The position numbers were made by a program, and so were the translations under genes. DNA of 9,514 nucleotides from contig DYJV01000074.1 of the NCBI GenBank assembly GCA_020722945.1, positions 1 to 9,514 of the forward strand. Direction: 5' to 3'. Under the pieces are notes generated by a model. That model saw only the letters and a program-made list of their open reading frames with translations. It was not told the origin of the DNA and did not search any database. Below, in pieces: positions 470-9,506 of this stretch. The stretch comes from Candidatus Methylomirabilis sp. (lineage in GTDB: Bacteria; DYJV01). The stretch's first letter is position 1; each line of letters starts with the position of its first letter.

Positions 470-2431
470 ATGAGATATGCGGAAACTGGTTATAATTTAG
501 AGATAGATCTTAGTAGAGGGATTATTGAAAGGGTGGAGAGTCCACTTCCATTGTCAGAGCAGTATCTCGGTGGATTGGGGACAAATGCAAAGATAATGTG
601 GGATAGGGTTTCTCCTGATGTTGATGCTTTTTCACCTGAAAATTTAATTATATTCAGTTCTGGACTTTTGTGTGGGACTACAGCTCCGGGAGCGAATAGA
701 ACAATAATTACTTCAATTTCTCCTCAGACAAACAGTATGGCTTTCTCAATGATGGGTGGTTATTGGTCACCAGAGCTAAAATATGCAGGTTATGATAAAG
801 TGATTGTAAAGGGGAAGTCTCCAAACCTTGTTTATCTCTACATAAATAATGATAAAGTTGAGTTGCGTGATGCAACTCATCTTAAAGGTAAAAGCACATA
901 TGATACTGCGACTTTGATAAAAGAGGAGCTTAATGACAAAAATATCCAAGTGCTTTCTATTGGGCTTGCAGGTGAGAACAGAGTGTTTTTTGCATCTATT
1001 GAGACAGAGATGAGTAGTGCAAGTAGGATGGGACTTGGTGCTGTCATGGGTGGCAAAAATCTCAAAGCAGTAGCAGTCAGGGGGACTAAGGATGTTAATA
1101 TCGCCAAACCTCTTGAATATATAAAAGAGTGTGAGAATATAAACAGATATGTTGATCATAGACTCAAAAATCCTCTTCCAGGGATACCCGGTATATTGTC
1201 AATGATAGGTTCTCCGCAGGAGATGGCTGTTAATGATGAAAAATGGCATACTATAAGTTTTGCTTGGGGTAATGCAAAACATCGTAGAAAAGATTTTTGG
1301 AACGATAAAGTTGAAGAGGAGTGGACAGAGACTATGGAGAAAGCCCGTAAAAGGCTTGTAGGTTGTTACAACTGCATGGCAAAATGTCATGGGATAATTG
1401 AAGTTCCCGGTTACCCTACCTATGTAATGAAATGTTTCTCCAAACTTACCTATGTTATGGCAGCAATGTCTGACAGTCTTGAGTTTGGTTTGAAAATAGC
1501 AGGGAAAGCTCAATCTTATGGAGTAGATGGTTATACTACGCCTCAGGTTATGGCTTTTGCAGTGGAGCTTTACGAGGAGGGGATTCTTACTGATGCTGAT
1601 TTAGAAGGGATGCCAAGTCAAAAAGAGGAGAGATTCTTCTGGTTACTTGATCAGATTGTAAATAGAAAAGGGATAGGTGATATACTTGCTGATGGTGTTT
1701 ATTGGGCAGCACGGAAGATAGGAAAGGGTGCAGAGAAGTTTGATCGAAATACTATAAAGAAGCATGAGCAGATACCTATAAAGCTTGGTATGCTTAATCC
1801 TGTTTATTATCTGATGTGGTCAACAGGGGAGAAGATAAATATTACTCAGATAGAGGGTCAGATACCACAAGCACCACTTACCAAAGAGCAGAGAGAGGAA
1901 TTTATAAAAGATTGGGTTCATGTGCCGACTGCAAAGAGGGATAAATTTTACAATTTTATTCTTGAATGGGGTGATGAAGGTAAGGTGTTTCCATTTTGGC
2001 CTTCAACCGAAATGATATGTGAGCTCGTTGAATGGCAGGAAACAATGCATTATATTGATGATTCACTTGGGATTTGTGCAGGATTGTCATCATTCCCCTT
2101 AAAACCGGCTTATCATATACACAATTTGCCAATATTTATCTCTTGTGCTTCAGGAATTGAGATGAATGAAGAGAAGCTTTGGGAGACTGCCGCAAGAGTT
2201 AGGACACTTGTAAGGGCAAACAATATTAGAAGAGGGATGAGAAGGAAAGATGAAGTTCCACCTGCAGATCATTGGAAGAAAAGGTTCCCTGAATATGAGG
2301 CAAAGTTGATGGATGAGTATTATAAATACAGAGGCTGGAATAATGATGGGATTCCCACAGAAGAGACACTTAAAAGACTTGGGCTTGATTATGTTTATGA
2401 AGACTTTAAAAAAAGAGGTATTTTAGATTAA
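470..2431 (+). CDS. bamB: BamB-type tungsten AOR-family subunit, class II benzoyl-CoA reductase
   Basis: This 653-residue protein belongs to the aldehyde:ferredoxin oxidoreductase family, whose members carry a tungsten bis-pyranopterin and one [4Fe-4S] cluster. The N-terminal domain starts MRYAETGYNLEIDLSRG, with the glycine-rich GGLGTNAKIMWD at 34-45 and the pterin-binding type region up to about 205. The family cluster motif is C299-x2-C302-x3-C306, with C536 (GICAGL) as probable fourth ligand. E251 and H260 lie in a segment I recall as part of the BamB active site. C322 (MKCFSKL) is a possible metal ligand, unconfirmed. Length, N-terminus and gene order match BamB of G. metallireducens as I remember it better than true aldehyde oxidoreductases. 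BamB reduces benzoyl-CoA to cyclohexa-1,5-diene-1-carbonyl-CoA in the cytoplasm. The ATG is set by AGGGG at 457-461, 8 bases upstream. A related aryl-CoA or aldehyde substrate cannot be excluded. Confidence 0.88.
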   Translation: MRYAETGYNLEIDLSRGIIERVESPLPLSEQYLGGLGTNAKIMWDRVSPDVDAFSPENLIIFSSGLLCGTTAPGANRTIITSISPQTNSMAFSMMGGYWSPELKYAGYDKVIVKGKSPNLVYLYINNDKVELRDATHLKGKSTYDTATLIKEELNDKNIQVLSIGLAGENRVFFASIETEMSSASRMGLGAVMGGKNLKAVAVRGTKDVNIAKPLEYIKECENINRYVDHRLKNPLPGIPGILSMIGSPQEMAVNDEKWHTISFAWGNAKHRRKDFWNDKVEEEWTETMEKARKRLVGCYNCMAKCHGIIEVPGYPTYVMKCFSKLTYVMAAMSDSLEFGLKIAGKAQSYGVDGYTTPQVMAFAVELYEEGILTDADLEGMPSQKEERFFWLLDQIVNRKGIGDILADGVYWAARKIGKGAEKFDRNTIKKHEQIPIKLGMLNPVYYLMWSTGEKINITQIEGQIPQAPLTKEQREEFIKDWVHVPTAKRDKFYNFILEWGDEGKVFPFWPSTEMICELVEWQETMHYIDDSLGICAGLSSFPLKPAYHIHNLPIFISCASGIEMNEEKLWETAARVRTLVRANNIRRGMRRKDEVPPADHWKKRFPEYEAKLMDEYYKYRGWNNDGIPTEETLKRLGLDYVYEDFKKRGILD

Positions 2432-2483: not shown

Positions 2484-2498
2484 GGAGATTTTGCTTTG
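2484..2498 (+). promoter_or_regulatory. Shine-Dalgarno fixing a TTG start (bamC-like)
   Basis: AAAGGAGA (2481-2488; GGAG 2484-2487) lies 7 bases before TTG 2496-2498. No in-frame ATG lies nearby, and the first cysteine motif begins only 20 codons downstream, so the TTG start is well supported. Confidence 0.7.
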
Positions 2499-3041
2499 AA
2501 CGGGGAGAAAAAAAAGCGTATTATAAAAAATATAAAAATTGACGTTAATAAATGTCACGGTTGTCGAGCATGTGAGGTGGCATGTGCTGCATTCCATTCC
2601 AAGCCAAAATACAGTAGCGTAAATCCTGCAAGATCAAGAATCAGAATTGTAAAGGATGAATTGAACAACATATTTTTCCCTATTAGAGCAGGTGCTTACA
2701 CCAAGTCTGAATGCACAGGGAGACAGACTTACGTCATTGATGGTAAAGATTATGGAGCATGCAATCTCTGTAATGTTTCATGTCCTGCGAGAGATATGTT
2801 TAAGGAGCCTGATTCAGGACTTCCACTAAGATGTGATATGTGTGAAGATGATCCTACTTTAAAAGAGCCGGTATGTGTTCAGTGGTGTCTTGTAGATGCA
2901 CTTACTTATGAAGAGAGAGAAGAGGAGTATGAGGAATCTCCACCTATTGAAGATATGGAGATAGCTTTGGATGATGTTGTCCAGAAATATGGTTTGGATA
3001 AAGTATTGGATGGACTTGCTCGTATTACTAAAAAGAGTTAA
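2496..3041 (+). CDS. bamC: BamC-type three-cluster ferredoxin subunit
   Basis: This 181-residue iron-sulfur protein has exactly twelve cysteines: C20, C23, C26, C30, C73, C89, C92, C96, C113, C116, C127 and C131. That is enough for three [4Fe-4S] clusters. The arrangement (CHGCRACEVAC, then CNLCNVSC, then CDMCEDD with VCVQWC) is that of the electron-transfer subunits of the DmsB/HycB type. BamC of class II benzoyl-CoA reductase is such a protein and sits against BamB, carrying electrons to its cluster. No signal peptide or membrane segment is visible, so it should be cytoplasmic. The tail from about 138 is acidic and cluster-free. It starts with TTG, 64 bases after the bamB-like stop, with no clear promoter or terminator between. 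As a lone protein it could be a partner of another AOR-family enzyme; the neighbours make BamC most likely. Confidence 0.85.
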   Translation: MNGEKKKRIIKNIKIDVNKCHGCRACEVACAAFHSKPKYSSVNPARSRIRIVKDELNNIFFPIRAGAYTKSECTGRQTYVIDGKDYGACNLCNVSCPARDMFKEPDSGLPLRCDMCEDDPTLKEPVCVQWCLVDALTYEEREEEYEESPPIEDMEIALDDVVQKYGLDKVLDGLARITKKS

Positions 3042-3067: not shown

Positions 3068-3086
3068 AGAGGAGCAGATAATAGTG
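3068..3086 (+). promoter_or_regulatory. Shine-Dalgarno fixing a GTG start (bamD-like)
   Basis: AGAGGAG at 3068-3074 lies 9 bases before GTG 3084-3086. The protein from this GTG has a sensible 24-residue helix before its first cysteine motif. Confidence 0.65.
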
Positions 3087-4235
3087 GAGATAGTAACCCC
3101 TTTCAAAGAGATAATTGAAGAAGTAAAAAGTATTGGTGGGGATTTAGCTAAATTTTGTTTTCAATGTGGGATATGTGACACTGTATGCCCATGGAACAAA
3201 GTCAGAAATTTTAGCATCCGTAAAATAATGAATCAGGCTATTTACGGTTTGTCAGAGGTAGAGAGTGAAGAGATGTGGCTCTGTTCGACTTGTGGGAGAT
3301 GTGTGCAGCGATGTCCCAGAGGTGTAAAGCAGATAGATGTATCAATAGCATTAAGAAGATTGGGGACAAATTATCAAGTTTTTCCTCCATCTGTGAAACC
3401 TATAAAAACTGTTATTGGTGGGTTGATGGCAGAAGGGAACCCTTTTGGGGAAGAGAGATCTAAAAGGGGGGATTGGGCTTCAGGTAAAGGTGTTAAAACT
3501 TTTTCTGAAGATATGGAAATCTTATATTTTTCATGCTGTTATTCAAGTTATGATAAAAGATTGAAAAATATAGCAGTTTCTACTGCATCAATACTTAAAA
3601 AAGCAGGTGTTAATTTTGGGATACTTGGAAGTAGCGAGAATTGTTGTGGAGAGAGTGTTAGAAAAACTGGAGATGAAGAGCTTTTTAAGAAGCTTGCAAA
3701 AGATAATATAAAAAATTTTATTGATAATGGCGTCAAAAAGATAGTTGTTTCCTCCCCTCATTGCTATCATACATTCAAAAATGAATACCCAGAATTTATG
3801 GTTAATTTTGAAATAATTCACATTACACAATACCTTTATGAGCTTATTAATTCAGGTAGGCTTAAGATTAAAGGTGAATACAAAAAAAGGGTGACATATC
3901 ATGACCCGTGTTATCTTGGAAGGCATAATGGGGTGTATGATGAGCCTCGTGAAGTCCTAAAAAAAATACCTTCACTTCAATTTTTTGAGATGTCAGATGC
4001 ATTTGAAGAGAGTCTCTGCTGCGGTGGAGGGGGTGGAAGGGTCTGGATGGAAACCCTCAAAGATGAAAGGTTCTCCAATTTAAGATTGAAGCAAGCTATT
4101 GATGTTGGGGCTGAGCAGTTGGTTACAGCTTGTCCTTACTGTATTACAATGTTTGAGGATAGTAGAGTTGTTTTAAATTATGAAGATGTATTAGAAATTA
4201 AAGATATTACAGAGATTGTTGCAGAGGTTATTTAA
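3084..4235 (+). CDS. bamD: BamD-type heterodisulfide reductase-like CCG-domain Fe-S protein
   Basis: The 383 residues resemble HdrD or a fused HdrCB. A two-cluster ferredoxin domain comes first: C25-x2-C28-x2-C31-x3-C35 and C67-x2-C70-x2-C73-x3-C77. Two CCG domains follow. CCG1 has CC at 151-152, CCG at 187-189 and SPHC at 224-227, where the usual CPHC has lost its first cysteine to Ser224. CCG2 is complete: C276 (HDPCYLGR), CCGGGGG at 312-318 and CPYC at 350-353. In HdrB such domains hold non-cubane [4Fe-4S] clusters that reduce a disulfide. In Bam complexes the homologue is thought to relay electrons towards BamBC; that role is inferred here from context. The protein is soluble. The gene starts 42 bases after the bamC-like stop, and fdhD follows after 36 bases. 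An alternative is a generic (Fe-S)-binding oxidoreductase of the GlpC/LldE class. Confidence 0.83.
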   Translation: MEIVTPFKEIIEEVKSIGGDLAKFCFQCGICDTVCPWNKVRNFSIRKIMNQAIYGLSEVESEEMWLCSTCGRCVQRCPRGVKQIDVSIALRRLGTNYQVFPPSVKPIKTVIGGLMAEGNPFGEERSKRGDWASGKGVKTFSEDMEILYFSCCYSSYDKRLKNIAVSTASILKKAGVNFGILGSSENCCGESVRKTGDEELFKKLAKDNIKNFIDNGVKKIVVSSPHCYHTFKNEYPEFMVNFEIIHITQYLYELINSGRLKIKGEYKKRVTYHDPCYLGRHNGVYDEPREVLKKIPSLQFFEMSDAFEESLCCGGGGGRVWMETLKDERFSNLRLKQAIDVGAEQLVTACPYCITMFEDSRVVLNYEDVLEIKDITEIVAEVI

Positions 4236-4258: not shown

Positions 4259-4274
4259 GGAGCTATAAAAGTTG
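4259..4274 (+). promoter_or_regulatory. Shine-Dalgarno and TTG start of fdhD, inside a possible weak hairpin
   Basis: GGAG at 4259-4262 lies 9 bases before TTG 4272-4274. CAACTT (4245-4250) can pair with AAGTTG (4269-4274), which would place the GGAG in the loop and the TTG in the 3' arm. The stem has only six pairs and an 18-base loop, so regulation by it is speculative. Confidence 0.4.
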
Positions 4275-5039
4275 GTTGCACTTTTTGAACAGAGCAAATG
4301 TTACAAATTTTCTAATAATGGATTGAGTGTAGAGTCAGTTTTTTTACCGCAGGAAATTGCACTTACACTTAATATTAATGGTCAAAGCAGATTTTCAATA
4401 CTCTGCACACCAAGTAAGTTGGAGTATCTTATAACAGGTTTCCTTTACTCTGAAAAAATTGTATCATCTGTTGCTGATATTGAAAATATTAATATAGATT
4501 ATCAAAATTTTACAGCTCATATAACTACCAAAACTAATATTGAGATAAAAGATAAGAAAACTATCACCTCAGGTTTTGGAAGTGGATTTATATTTAATTA
4601 CGATGGAGAGATTGTATCTTCACAACTTACTATATCTCCTGATGAGATTATATCAGTTGTAGAGTTGCTATATTCAAATATGGAGCTTTACAAAATTAGT
4701 GGTGGAGTTCATGCTTCTGCTCTTTCAGATGGTAAAAAGATTATCATTATATCTGAGGATATAGGGCGGCATAATAGTATTGATAAGATACATGGTGAAT
4801 CTCTTTCGATAGGTTTGGATACAAAAGATATGATACTTATTACAACTGGTAGGATATCTTCAGAGATGCTTCTAAAGTCATCGAGAATGAAAATTCCTAT
4901 TGTTATCTCCAAAAAATCTATAACTGCAAATTCATTTTTACTTGCTGATAGACTTGGAATAACAATTATTGCCAATGTAAAAGGTAACACTTTTAATATT
5001 TATACTCACCCTGAAAGGGTTTTGTCCAAAGTTGGTTAA
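4272..5039 (+). CDS. fdhD: FdhD-family molybdo/tungsto-enzyme sulfurtransferase homologue lacking the loop cysteine
   Basis: Family signatures are clear over 255 residues: ILCTPSKLEYLITGFLYSEK (43-62), SGGVHAS (143-149), the DIGRHNSIDK block (163-172), TTGRISSEMLLKSS (191-204) and the C-terminal FNIYTHPERV (241-250). FdhD takes sulfur from the cysteine desulfurase IscS and hands it to the metal-pterin cofactor of formate dehydrogenase. It binds the cofactor as a dimer. The sulfur-carrying cysteine(s) lie in a loop that reads TSGCG or CGxCG in relatives I know. Here the loop is TSGFGSGF (99-106), with Phe102 (TTT, 4575-4577) in place of cysteine. The only cysteines are C10 and C45. It may therefore bind or chaperone the cofactor without persulfide transfer, or use another thiol. 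Its place between the bamD-like and bamE-like genes suggests it serves the tungstopterin of the BamB-like subunit. There is no formate dehydrogenase in the window. Confidence 0.85.
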   Translation: MVALFEQSKCYKFSNNGLSVESVFLPQEIALTLNINGQSRFSILCTPSKLEYLITGFLYSEKIVSSVADIENINIDYQNFTAHITTKTNIEIKDKKTITSGFGSGFIFNYDGEIVSSQLTISPDEIISVVELLYSNMELYKISGGVHASALSDGKKIIIISEDIGRHNSIDKIHGESLSIGLDTKDMILITTGRISSEMLLKSSRMKIPIVISKKSITANSFLLADRLGITIIANVKGNTFNIYTHPERVLSKVG

Positions 5040-5076: not shown

Positions 5077-5090
5077 AGGAGACAAAAGTG
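5077..5090 (+). promoter_or_regulatory. Shine-Dalgarno fixing a GTG start (bamE-like)
   Basis: AGGAG at 5077-5081, inside AAAAGGAGA, lies 6 bases before GTG 5088-5090. The FAD-binding motif begins about 25 codons later, as expected for this family. Confidence 0.65.
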
Positions 5091-8000
5091 AATTTAGAAA
5101 CAATAGAGGGTCAATTACTCCTTAGGAGTCTCAAAGAGAAGAATTTTGGAGATGTAATGGTGCTCGGAGGCGGGATTAGTGGTATTCAAGCTGCTCTTGA
5201 TCTTGCTAATTCAGGGTTTAAAGTTTATCTTGTTGATAAGGGTTTGTCTATTGGTGGACACATGGCTCAACTTGATAAGACTTTCCCTACAAATGAGTGC
5301 TCCATCTGAATTCTCTCACCTAAGCTGGTCGAGGTCGGCCGCCATCAAAATATAGAAGTATTGACATATACAGAGCTTTATGATGTTTCAGGTGAACCTG
5401 GTAATTTTACTATAAAATTAAAAAGAAAGGCAAGATATATAAGGGAGGATCTCTGCACAGGTTGTTCTACATGTGTTGAATACTGCCCTGTTCTTGTCCC
5501 TGATATTTTTAATCAAAACTTAAACGAAAATAAGGCAGTTCATATTTACTTTTCTCAGGCGATACCACTTATTACCTATATAGATCCTGAATATTGCCTT
5601 TATTTAAAGGAGAGAAAGTGTGGTATCTGTCAAAATGTATGTAATGCTCTTGCAATAGATTTTACACAGAAAGATCAGATAATAGATATAAATGTGGGAG
5701 CAGTAATATTTTCGGGAGGCTTTGAACCTTTTGATCCTACTGTAAGAAAAGAGTATAAATATGGTGTTTTTAAAAATGTTGTTACGAGTATGGATTTTGA
5801 AAGGATGCTCAGCTCTACAGGTCCTTATGAAGGGGAGATACTTAGACCATCTGACCGACAACATCCTAAAAAAATAGCATGGATACAGTGTGTGGGCTCA
5901 CGTCAGATTCTTGAAGGGGCGAATAGTTACTGTTCATCTGTATGCTGCACATACACTCAGAAGCAGCTTATACTTATGAAAGACCACTATCCCGATTCTG
6001 AATGCACAGTTTTCCACAACGATATCAGGGCGTATGGGAAAGATTTTGAAAGGTATTATCAAAGAGCAAGATCCCTTGAAAATGTAAGATTTATAAGAAG
6101 TTATACTACAATTACAAAGGAAGATAAAGAGAGTCAGAATGTTTTTGTTAGATACACTACATTCGATGAGGGGGTAAAAGAGGAGGAGTTTGATCTTGTT
6201 GTTTTATCTGTTGGTTTATCTCCATCGATAGCTAACAAAGATATTATTTCAAAATTTTCTCTTGACCTGAATAAACACGGTTTCTGTAAAATTGACGGGT
6301 TTAACAATATAAAAACTGGGAGAAGTGGTTTATTTGCAAGTGGTGCTTTTCAGGGACCACTTGATATTCCTGAATCTGTTTTTACTGCAAGTGGTGCTGT
6401 TTCACAATGTGGGGAGTTGCTAAATTATCGTAGAGATAAGTTGACAGTTGACAGGATCTATCCTGCTGAAAAGGATGTAAGATCAGAAGAAGCAAGAGTA
6501 GGTGTTTTTGTGTGTCACTGTGGTGCTAACATTGGTCGTGTAGTTAATGTCCCTGAAGTTGTTAGATACGCTTTGACACTACCTAACGTTGTATATGCAG
6601 ATGAGCAGCTCTTTTCATGTTCTACAAATTCAGCCAAAGATATTACAAATGTTATCAAAGATAAAGGATTGAATCGGCTTATAGTTGCAGCGTGTAGTCC
6701 ACGAAACCTTGAACCAACATTTCGTGATTCTTTGAGAGAAGCTGGAATAAATCAATATTTTGTTGTTATGGCAAATATAAGAGAGCACTGTTCTTGGGTT
6801 CATTCAAAAGAGAAGGAAGCAGCTACAAATAAAGCTAAAGACCTCGTGAGGATGGCACTTGCCAGAGTTAGAAATCTTGAGCCTATAGAAGATATTGAGC
6901 TGCCCGTTGATAAAAGAGCACTTGTTCTTGGTGGTGGTATTGCAGGGATGACTGCTGCACTTAGCATCGCAAATCAGGGACACGAGGTTTACCTTGTAGA
7001 GAGGGAGAGAGAGCTTGGTGGTATGGCAAGGAGTATTTACTATACTCTTGAAGGTCTTGATGTTCAAAATTATCTAAAGGAGCTCACAGATAAACTTTAT
7101 AAAAATCAATTAGTTCACATACTTACCAATACAAATATTTTAAGTGCTACAGGTTATGTTGGTAATTTTATTACAAATGTTGAATCAGACGGCAGAATCT
7201 TTGAAATAAAACATGGAGCTGCTGTAATTGCTACAGGTTCTAAAGAGTATCAGCCGAAAGAGTATTTTTATGGTGAAAATAACAAAGTTATTACCCAAAA
7301 TGAACTTGAATATAAAATTATTCATAAAGATGAGATTGTTCAAAGTTCAGAAAGTATTGTAATGATCCAGTGTGTTGGCTGCAGAAATGAGGAGAGGAAT
7401 TACTGTTCAAGAATATGTTGTTCAAGAGCTGTGAAAAATGCACTGAAGTTGAAAGAGGAGAACCAAAATAGAGATGTTTATATCCTTTTTAGAGATATGA
7501 GGATGTATGGTTTTAGAGAGGATTATTATAGAGAAGCTGCTTCAAAGGATGTCAAATTTATAAGATATGAAGCAGATATGCCACCTGAGGTTCAGTTTGC
7601 TAAGGAGTCTGGTAAAGATGTTGTGAGAGTTACTGTTGCTGAATATGTTTTGGGGCAGAAGCTTTCAATTGATGCTGACCTTTTGGTTTTGTCAACAGCA
7701 GTTATTCCTGATTCACAGAATGTTGAACTTGCAAAAACATTCAAAGTTGCACTATCACCTGATGGATTTTTTCAGGAAGCACATGTAAAGCTCAAACCAG
7801 TTGATTTTAGTGCAGATGGTGTATTTCTCTGCGGGACAGCTCACTACCCTAAACATATTCAAGAGTCTATAAATCAAGCTTATGGTGCAGCAGGTAGAGT
7901 TTTAACACTTCTCTCACACGACAAAGTCAAAGTATCAGGTTCGGTATGTGAAGTTGATTCCAAAAAATGTATGGGCTGTGGAGCTTGTATAGATGTTTGC

Positions 8001-8180
8001 AAATATGGAGCAATAGAATTTTTTGAAGATAAAAGAGTAAAAAAGGCAAAGGTTAATCCTGTGCTTTGTAAAGGTGATGGTTTATGCACATCTCAATGTC
8101 CTACAAGTGCAATTAGATTAAAACATTTTACAAATGAGCAGATAATTGGAGAGATTGATGCACTTATTGAAGTATTATAA
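5088..8180 (+). CDS. bamE: BamE-type two-module HdrA-like flavoprotein, selenoprotein (Sec74)
   Basis: Reading the in-frame TGA at 5307-5309 as selenocysteine gives 1030 residues with unbroken homology on both sides. Module 1 has the FAD motif VLGGGISGIQAALDLA (25-40), then GGHMAQLDKTFPTNECSI (56-73), Sec74 and ILSPKLVEVGRHQNIEV. Clusters follow at C123/126/129/133 and C170/178/181/185, then the HdrA motif C268 with C282/C286/C287. A linker (476-600) holds CHCG, SCST and ACSPR motifs. Module 2 repeats the FAD motif (GGGIAG 615-620) and CVGC/YCSRICC (762-778). The tail is a ferredoxin domain: C961/964/967/971 and C994/1000/1004, with Asp997 where the fourth cysteine is expected. HdrA is the FAD site of electron bifurcation in heterodisulfide reductase complexes. 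BamE is its counterpart in benzoyl-CoA reductase. Module 2 has SIYYTLEGL where module 1 has the Sec motif, so only one selenium site exists. The gap to the next gene is 21 bases. A sequencing error is unlikely because the frame never changes. Confidence 0.88.
5307..5309 (+). other. Recoded TGA, selenocysteine codon (Sec74 of HdrA-like protein)
   Basis: The codon follows ECSI and precedes ILSPKLVEVGRH. In cysteine-containing HdrA proteins this position is Cys in a CSICIL-type motif, and Sec is known there in methanogen HdrA. The frame stays open for 957 codons afterwards. The first downstream ATG-like or TTG starts lie inside a conserved domain, which argues against two separate genes. Confidence 0.88.
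5324..5342 (+). promoter_or_regulatory. Bacterial SECIS hairpin of the HdrA-like gene
   Basis: GCUGGUC (5324-5330) pairs with GGCCGC (5337-5342) if U5326 is bulged: G-C, C-G, bulged U, G-C, G-C, U-G, C-G. The loop is GAGGUC. The stem begins 14 bases after the UGA and the loop GG is at +24/+25. A bulged U and an apical GGUC are the features that bind SelB in the E. coli fdhF element. The codons here (CTG GTC GAG GTC GGC CGC) are strikingly G+C-rich for this AT-rich gene, as expected if RNA structure constrains them. Confidence 0.75.
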
Positions 8181-8201: not shown

Positions 8202-9047
8202 ATGGGTGGTATGACTAAATTTAGTCCCAAAATAGTTGCTTTTGTTTGTCATTGGTGAGGTTATGGGGCTGCTGACCTTGCTGGAGTTTCCAGAATTCAA
8301 TATTCAACAGATATAAGACTTATACGGGTAATGTGCAGTGGAAGGGTTGATCTATCCTTTGTGATCAAAGCATTCCTGAATGGTAATGATGCTGTGTATA
8401 TAGCTGCGTGCAAGTTGGATGAGTGTAATTATATCACCAGTGGTAATTACCATGCTTTGAAAATGGTTATTTTGTGTAAAAGAATTATGGAGCATATAGG
8501 TTTAAACCCTAATAGATTGAAGATAAATTTTATGTCAGCTTCTGAGGGGAATAAATTTGCAGAGACAGTTGACTCTTTTATAAAGGAGATTAAAGATATA
8601 GGTCCATTCGGAAAAGGTGAAGGGGTTGACGAAGCTTTACTAAAAGATAAGGTTAAGGAAATTTATAAACTTATTCCATACATAAAAATTGCGATGAGAG
8701 AGAAACTTCATGCACCTATCAGTAGAAATCGTGAAGAGTGGGATAAGATTTTTACGATTCAAGATGTTGAGACGCTTTTTAGAGAAGTCCCATCTTACTG
8801 GATAGACCCAGAGAAGTGTCAGGCTTGTGGAACATGCTTGAGAAGGTGTCCAGAAGATGCAATTATTGGTGGTAAGAACCTTGTTCATATAATTGACCAG
8901 CAAAAATGTATAAAATGTGGGACATGTTTTGAAGCTTGTCCACCCAAATTTGGAGCTGTTACCAAACTTCTCGGAACCACTGTGCCTGCTGTTATTAGTG
9001 AAGAAAAGAGAGTGATAAATAGAAAAAGTAAAGATACTAAAGATTAG
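8202..9047 (+). CDS. bamF: BamF-type MvhD-like selenoprotein (Sec19) with C-terminal two-cluster ferredoxin
   Basis: Starting at ATG 8202 and reading TGA 8256-8258 as selenocysteine gives 281 residues. The MvhD/FlpD domain (about 10-140) opens with FVCHWUGYGAADLAGVSR (14-31). The usual form is CxxWCxYxxADxAGxxR, so Sec19 replaces the second cysteine and C16 is kept. C45 (MCSGRVD), C70 and C75 (ACKLDEC) are further likely [2Fe-2S] ligands. A ferredoxin domain ends the protein: C206/209/212/216 and C236/239/242/246. MvhD links hydrogenase to HdrA in methanogens. In benzoyl-CoA-degrading anaerobes the homologue BamF passes electrons to or from BamE and is known as a selenoprotein. AAAGGAG at 8185-8191 lies 10 bases before the ATG. 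A start at Met44 (8331) would delete the diagnostic motif and has no good ribosome binding site. The stop is TAG, the only non-TAA stop in the window. Confidence 0.87.
8256..8258 (+). other. Recoded TGA, selenocysteine codon (Sec19 of MvhD-like protein)
   Basis: The codon follows VCHW and precedes GYGAADLAG, exactly at the second cysteine of the MvhD-family CxxWC motif. The reading frame is open from ATG 8202 on one side and to 9047 on the other. This position is a known Cys/Sec site in FrhD/MvhD-type proteins. Confidence 0.87.
8278..8295 (+). promoter_or_regulatory. Candidate SECIS hairpin of the MvhD-like gene
   Basis: CUGGA (8281-8285) pairs perfectly with UCCAG (8289-8293) around the loop GUU. 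UU 8278-8279 can add two pairs with AA 8294-8295 if G8280 is bulged. The loop starts 28 bases after the UGA and its first base is G, both within what is accepted for bacterial SECIS elements. It is shorter and less fdhF-like than the element in the preceding gene, so the exact fold is less certain. Confidence 0.55.
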
Positions 9048-9059
9048 GGGGTAACTATG
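9046..9059 (+). promoter_or_regulatory. Shine-Dalgarno overlapping the bamF-like stop codon
   Basis: AGGGGG (9046-9051) overlaps the TAG stop (9045-9047) and lies 5 bases before ATG 9057. This is the tightest junction in the window and suggests translational coupling of the two genes. Confidence 0.6.
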
Positions 9060-9506
9060 AGTAAAGATATAAAGATAAGACTTATGTCAAAGAATGACTA
9101 CAATGCTGTTTTAAAAATAGATGAGAAGGTTAATAAATCTCTAAGGTCTGAATATTATAAATTGAAGTTTGAGAAGCTTGTTGAATCTAAAGATTATGTT
9201 CCTACATCCATGGTTGCTGTTGACGAAGATAAAAATATTGTTGGTTTCATTATGGGTGAGCTTTTTATGGGAGAGTATGGAATATCTGATGATAGAGCAG
9301 TCATTGATACAATAGGTGTTGATCCAGATTTCCAAAATATGGGGATAGGTAAAAAGCTTATTGATGAATTTATAGAACATCTAAGAATGCTTGGAGTTCA
9401 AAAGGTCAATACACTTGTTAGATGGAATGATCCTGAGCTTATTCCATTTTTCAGTGCAAACAATTTCATTCCGTCCAAAATAATAAATTTGGTAAGAGAG
9501 ATATAA
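9057..9506 (+). CDS. GNAT-family N-acetyltransferase
   Basis: This 149-residue protein has the GCN5-related acetyltransferase fold. It starts IRLMSKNDYNAVLKIDE (7-23), followed by a strand VAVDEDKNIVGFIMGE (53-68). The acetyl-CoA pyrophosphate loop is in DTIGVDPDFQNMGIGKKLID (84-103), where Q93-N-M-G96-I-G98 fits Q/RxxGxG/A. The C-terminal part has VNTLVRWNDPELIPFFSANNF (117-137), the usual late helix-strand where the Phe/Tyr-rich motif lies. GNAT enzymes move an acetyl group from acetyl-CoA to an amine, either a small molecule or a protein lysine or N-terminus; the substrate cannot be read from the sequence. It starts only 9 bases after the bamF-like stop, so it is in the same operon. Acetylation of aromatic-acid CoA ligases is known in other bacteria, so control of the benzoate pathway is possible but inferred. 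Confidence 0.82.
   Translation: MSKDIKIRLMSKNDYNAVLKIDEKVNKSLRSEYYKLKFEKLVESKDYVPTSMVAVDEDKNIVGFIMGELFMGEYGISDDRAVIDTIGVDPDFQNMGIGKKLIDEFIEHLRMLGVQKVNTLVRWNDPELIPFFSANNFIPSKIINLVREI

Follow-up and report, generated by a model that had tools for sequence, protein, structure and literature searches.

A gene for an HdrA-like flavoprotein, bamE, carries a TGA codon in its reading frame, and this raises two questions: whether the codon is read as selenocysteine, as a first-pass annotation of the DNA proposed, and what a single selenocysteine would do in a protein built from two HdrA modules. The window analysed here is one whole contig of 9,514 bases from a 2.5-Mb draft genome. Its composition (35.6% GC against 33.4%, and a tetranucleotide correlation of 0.967, in comparison with other sampled contigs of the genome) disfavours mis-binning, and the contig most likely belongs to the genome to which it is assigned.

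A benzoyl-CoA reductase operon

Judged from its sequence matches, bamE belongs to a class II benzoyl-CoA reductase (Bam) operon. The genes bamB-C-D-E-F are all on the contig with fdhD inserted (order bamB-C-D-fdhD-E-F; 36% GC, 27% GC3; Table 1), and the contig ends at 9514 after a GNAT acetyltransferase gene, with no bamG-H-I within it. The order bamB-C-D-(fdhD)-E-F is found again in many relatives' contigs, and many genomes encode a BamE-type relative, at 61-68% identity, in the interval from bamD to bamF. BamB matches Geobacter BamB (4z3w) over its full length (residues 1-652, E 2e-296), and the genome also encodes the ring-cleavage hydrolase BamA/oah (581.5 bits, over cut-off), next to a dch-like gene whose Dch score is below the family cut-off. 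Related bam clusters can also process different ring compounds, and this, together with the low Dch score, might suggest that the operon serves an aryl- or acyl-CoA reductase with a substrate other than benzoyl-CoA. We consider this unlikely, given the full-length match to Geobacter BamB and a benzoyl-CoA pathway hydrolase well above its cut-off.

The fdhD gene between bamD and bamE is the only copy that a search of the genome returned. The same placement occurs in loci L024, L038, L051, L081, L082 and L090; it is shared by several Bacillota, by a member of the Chloroflexi and by one contig of a deltaproteobacterium. FdhD may sulfurate the tungsten cofactor of BamB. That it is dedicated exclusively to BamB is unsupported, as the genome also encodes molybdopterin oxidoreductases, one of them with an in-frame TGA.

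Table 1. Features of the window, with positions and the basis of each assignment
Feature	Position	Strand	Basis
bamB, tungsten benzoyl-CoA reductase active-site subunit	470..2431	+	full-length 4z3w match; AFOR domains
bamC, polyferredoxin	2496..3041	+	Fe-S domains; sits after bamB in relatives too
bamD, HdrC/HdrB-like, 4Fe-4S and two CCG domains	3084..4235	+	domain matches; gene order in relatives
fdhD, sulfurtransferase	4272..5039	+	TIGR00129 above cut-off
bamE, double HdrA-type flavoprotein, 1030 residues, predicted Sec74, GTG start	5088..8180	+	open reading frame; HdrA matches (5odc, 8rvu)
BamE module 1 (about residues 18-455): FAD fold, Sec74, inserted 8-Cys ferredoxin	5139..6452	+	HdrA match; self-alignment
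TGA codon, predicted Sec74 (HdrA Cys197)	5307..5309	+	TGA in 59/74 relatives, TGC/TGT in 15
bamE SECIS: stem CUGGUC/GGCCG(C), loop GAGGUC, AGGU exposed	5325..5342	+	pairing and synonymous conservation
BamE module 2 (residues 467-1030): N-terminal cluster domain, FAD fold, C-terminal ferredoxin	6486..8177	+	HdrA match; self-alignment
bamF, FlpD/MvhD domain and ferredoxin, predicted second selenoprotein	8202..9047	+	open reading frame; domains; relatives
TGA codon, predicted Sec19 of BamF (CHWU)	8256..8258	+	relatives
BamF SECIS stem-loop CUGGAGUUUCCAG	8280..8292	+	nearly invariant in relatives; folds
GNAT acetyltransferase gene	9057..9506	+	PF00583; a 61% relative also follows bamF in locus L083

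Reading through the TGA of bamE

The bamE frame runs through 1030 codons with one in-frame TGA, between ECSI and ILSPKLVEVGRH, and no other stop; AAAGGAGAC, about 10 bases upstream of the GTG, makes a good ribosome-binding site. Standard annotation would split the gene, as the first-pass annotation expected, since a table 11 reading yields one piece at 5088-5309 (73 aa) and another at 5361-8180 (939 aa). The TGA does fall at the Cys/Sec position known from HdrA: the alignment to chain A of 5odc is ungapped from query residue 24 (chain residue 147) to the site, and it puts residue 74 at residue 197. The column behaves accordingly among relatives, with TGA in 59 of the 74 BamE-type sites that span the codon and TGC or TGT in 15, counts that come from the best 80 matches, which share ancestry, and so are not independent events. 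On the tree of these relatives, about three switches between Sec and Cys suffice.

The genome encodes all four parts of the selenocysteine machinery that were looked for. SelA, SelB and SelD each score over their family cut-offs, and selC, the tRNA-Sec gene, scores 72.8 bits against a cut-off of 47; the presence of selB and selC answers the case in which either was absent, which the earlier annotation had named as evidence against its reading. The selD frame itself contains one TGA.

A SECIS-like hairpin after the TGA had also been claimed, and here it is comparison across relatives, and not the fold of the single sequence, that makes the element real. Folded alone it is indistinguishable from chance (z -0.33), and an Rfam scan of the window gave no relevant match. 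The hairpin starts 16 bases past the TGA, its loop occupies positions 25-30 (with the T of TGA as position 1), and its outermost stem pair is C-C in the window sequence. In relatives with TGA, codons 80-86 reach a synonymous conservation of 0.97, the highest of all 7-codon windows of bamE, where the gene as a whole averages 0.475; in Cys relatives these codons score 0.55, close to the average of 0.52 for that group. Standard pairs, counted over positions 19-24 with 31-36 plus the pair 25-30, make up 416 of 420 in Sec genes as against 65 of 119 in Cys genes, and the outer pair shows a double compensatory change from C-G to A-U in three relatives. Codons 80-85 (CTG GTC GAG GTC GGC CGC) have a probability of about 3e-8 under the codon usage of the operon, and they fall inside its longest run of G/C-ending codons (7). 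Pairing alone is weak evidence for a SECIS, because 2290 of 20000 synonymous recodings in a codon-shuffle control keep the five inner pairs; stability is the stricter measure, with 8 of 5000 recodings equally stable.

Could the TGA instead be a true stop, a pseudogene mutation or a sequencing error, leaving bamE broken or made of two genes? The two table 11 pieces and the TTG start available at 5361 could be read in this way, but a product begun there would lack residues 1-91 and with them the FAD-binding GGGISG motif, and the protein is kept on either side of the TGA, as is the hairpin itself. The TGA is shared by 59 relatives in separate assemblies from several phyla, and sequencing error is implausible because dozens of independent assemblies carry TGA at this same codon. 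With a complete selenocysteine machinery in the genome as well, we regard a broken or split gene as highly improbable. It is less probable still that TGA is an ordinary sense codon for Trp or Gly in this genome. The adjacent genes bamE and bamF each have an in-frame TGA, as such a code would allow, but each of these long frames has only one, homologues carry Cys and never Trp or Gly at the column, and tRNA-Sec and SelB are encoded. Because the machinery, the TGA/Cys column and the constraint on the hairpin agree, little room is left beyond selenocysteine insertion, and the TGA of bamE is almost certainly decoded as selenocysteine. SelB and tRNA-Sec would carry out the decoding, with the downstream hairpin as their signal.

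The place of one selenocysteine in a double HdrA protein

BamE does contain two HdrA modules, as had been noted, which is apparent from its self-alignment and from the match of a single HdrA chain to it in three pieces (residues 467-623, 24-382 and 854-1026). The NF040770 profile gives 950 bits, under its cut-off of 1100. An AlphaFold model of BamE (pLDDT 80.2, with residues 61-72 beside the site below 50) finds HdrA chains as its best PDB matches, 5odc first. All four features of HdrA are present, the thioredoxin-reductase-like FAD core, the N-terminal cluster domain and the inserted and C-terminal ferredoxins, but they are split over the two modules: module 1 is without the N-terminal cluster domain, and the FAD fold of module 2 is without a Cys at the 197 position and without the inserted ferredoxin. 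Because the modules show this complementary loss, a protein with two modules has a single Sec site.

In the methanogen HdrA complex, Cys197 is reported to donate, across the dimer, one ligand of the N-terminal Fe-S cluster, and in fused or tandem archaeal HdrA proteins Cys197 and the N-terminal domain are lost in a complementary way (PMC9012536); the loss pattern of BamE runs in the opposite order to that of archaeal HdrA3/4. BamE is a fused pseudo-heterodimer of two complementary HdrA halves, in which Sec74 stands at the position of Cys197, the residue that reaches from one HdrA copy to the other as a ligand of the N-terminal [4Fe-4S] cluster. The N-terminal domain of module 2 has four invariant cysteines (C476, C478, C511 and C536), and Sec74 would bind, within the same chain, a cluster held by three of them. 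We propose Sec74 as a ligand of the module-2 cluster because residue 74 corresponds to Cys197 and the modules complement each other. For the ligand step taken alone, an Fe-S ligand that joins the two halves, the comparison with HdrA tips the balance slightly in favour; for the full proposal, in which Sec74 as a selenolate ligates a [4Fe-4S] cluster that bridges the two HdrA halves within one chain, we put the chances at about even.

It is also conceivable that Sec74 is a redox-active selenol, forming for instance a selenosulfide with Cys71, and not an Fe-S ligand. Sec74 sits in a C71-x-x-U74 motif whose Cys71 is invariant in 24 of 24 aligned proteins, and CxxU, which PMC13188914 gives as the family motif, is a common thiol-selenol arrangement. 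Against this, the published description of the solved HdrA complex makes Cys197 an Fe-S ligand (PMC9012536), and a ligand supplied in trans accords with the complementary loss, so that a redox-active selenol seems to us rather doubtful.

The first-pass annotation placed a second selenoprotein next to bamE, and bamF indeed adjoins it in this Bam-type operon with a TGA of its own; the corresponding motif codon is TGA in 67 of the 68 motif-bearing loci among L020-L099. The Sec or Cys labels for BamE that accompanied this BamF comparison were set aside, since some loci labelled Cys do not reach the BamE site. If Sec74 is a cluster ligand, it and Sec19 of BamF would attach selenium directly to two Fe-S centres within a single electron path, and selenium would tune the low-potential branch by which reduction of the benzene ring is driven. 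An electron-bifurcating role has been proposed for the Bam complex (PMC12096430), and BamE may route electrons between FAD and Fe-S centres such that BamB receives electrons of very low potential. The evidence on this organism comes entirely from sequence, and three points are inferred: that selenium ligates the cluster, that it affects the cluster's potential, and that electrons are bifurcated at all.

Known relatives and what this locus adds

Identification of a Sec-type BamE is correct but already known in kind, from the BamE of Desulfococcus multivorans and from bacterial Sec-HdrA. The statement that Sec in HdrA is documented in methanogens holds as far as it goes, but such proteins are not confined to methanogens: bacterial Sec-HdrA proteins were already listed in a 2006 catalogue (PMC1794560), Sec-HdrA was found in Desulfobacterium autotrophicum (PMC2702500), and D. 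multivorans BamE is one of five UGA genes bearing a SECIS in that organism (PMC5109826). The last is a class II reductase protein with a UGA Sec codon before a SECIS and a double locus tag (dmul_C24500/10; PMC5109826); it comes from a different organism and is likened to the present BamE by description. The Sec-HdrA family of bacteria and methanogens shares the CxxU motif and is often encoded beside a Sec-containing FrhD/MvhD (PMC1794560; NF040770, PMC13188914). The HdrA of methanogens, as a rule some 650 aa long, works as a dimer of two copies, whereas BamE, encoded in a Bam operon, has two modules fused in one chain. The benzene degrader ORM2a has the same proteins as here (BamB, C, D, FdhD, E and F), of which BamE and FdhD were detected by proteomics; the text of that paper contains no word starting with "selen", and Sec in BamE goes unmentioned there (PMC13101534). 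BamE of the Geobacter type (L072, L076, L078) shares the operon position and the double-HdrA architecture, but it has Cys at the site, lacks a SECIS, and carries Glu76 and Cys83 where the present BamE has Leu76 and Val83.

The present analysis adds a view of how widely Sec-BamE and Sec-BamF occur, a measured constraint on the hairpin, and a reading of the single Sec through Cys197. Since table 11 cuts both bamE and bamF, surveys can undercount the enzyme and misjudge its need for selenium, and the widespread Sec-BamE and Sec-BamF with their near-frozen SECIS offer a DNA signature by which split copies can be recognised. With Sec74 mapped to an inter-subunit cluster ligand, and with modules that complement each other, the selenoprotein assignment becomes a testable chemical proposal for the redox chemistry of anaerobic aromatic degradation.

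The Sec and Cys forms differ beyond codon 74. Sec-type relatives have Leu76 and Val or Ala83 in 60 of 60 cases (codons 5313-5315 and 5334-5336 of the window), whereas Cys-type BamE/HdrA relatives (L038, L063, L067, L072 and L093, for example) have Glu76 in 16 of 17 and a second Cys at 83 in 15 of 17. Codon 83 lies in the SECIS loop, and a Cys there is therefore incompatible with the SECIS. The Desulfotomaculum BamE (L038, 7001-10066) has Cys74 and the Cys-type signature yet falls inside a Sec clade of the tree, which suggests replacement by, or recombination with, a Cys-type copy. In locus L051 a Sec-type and a Cys-type BamE stand in tandem. BamE on a Candidatus Omnitrophota contig (L050) is nearly identical to that of a Proteobacteria MAG (L032), with branches of about 0.02, and this suggests recent transfer or mis-binning. 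In Desulfosarcina cetonica (loci L097 and L098), the Sec TGA is present in each of the two BamE copies and in each of the two BamF genes. After purification, the complex of D. cetonica was reported to contain two selenocysteines in the dimer; with two Sec sites in every protomer, four would be expected.
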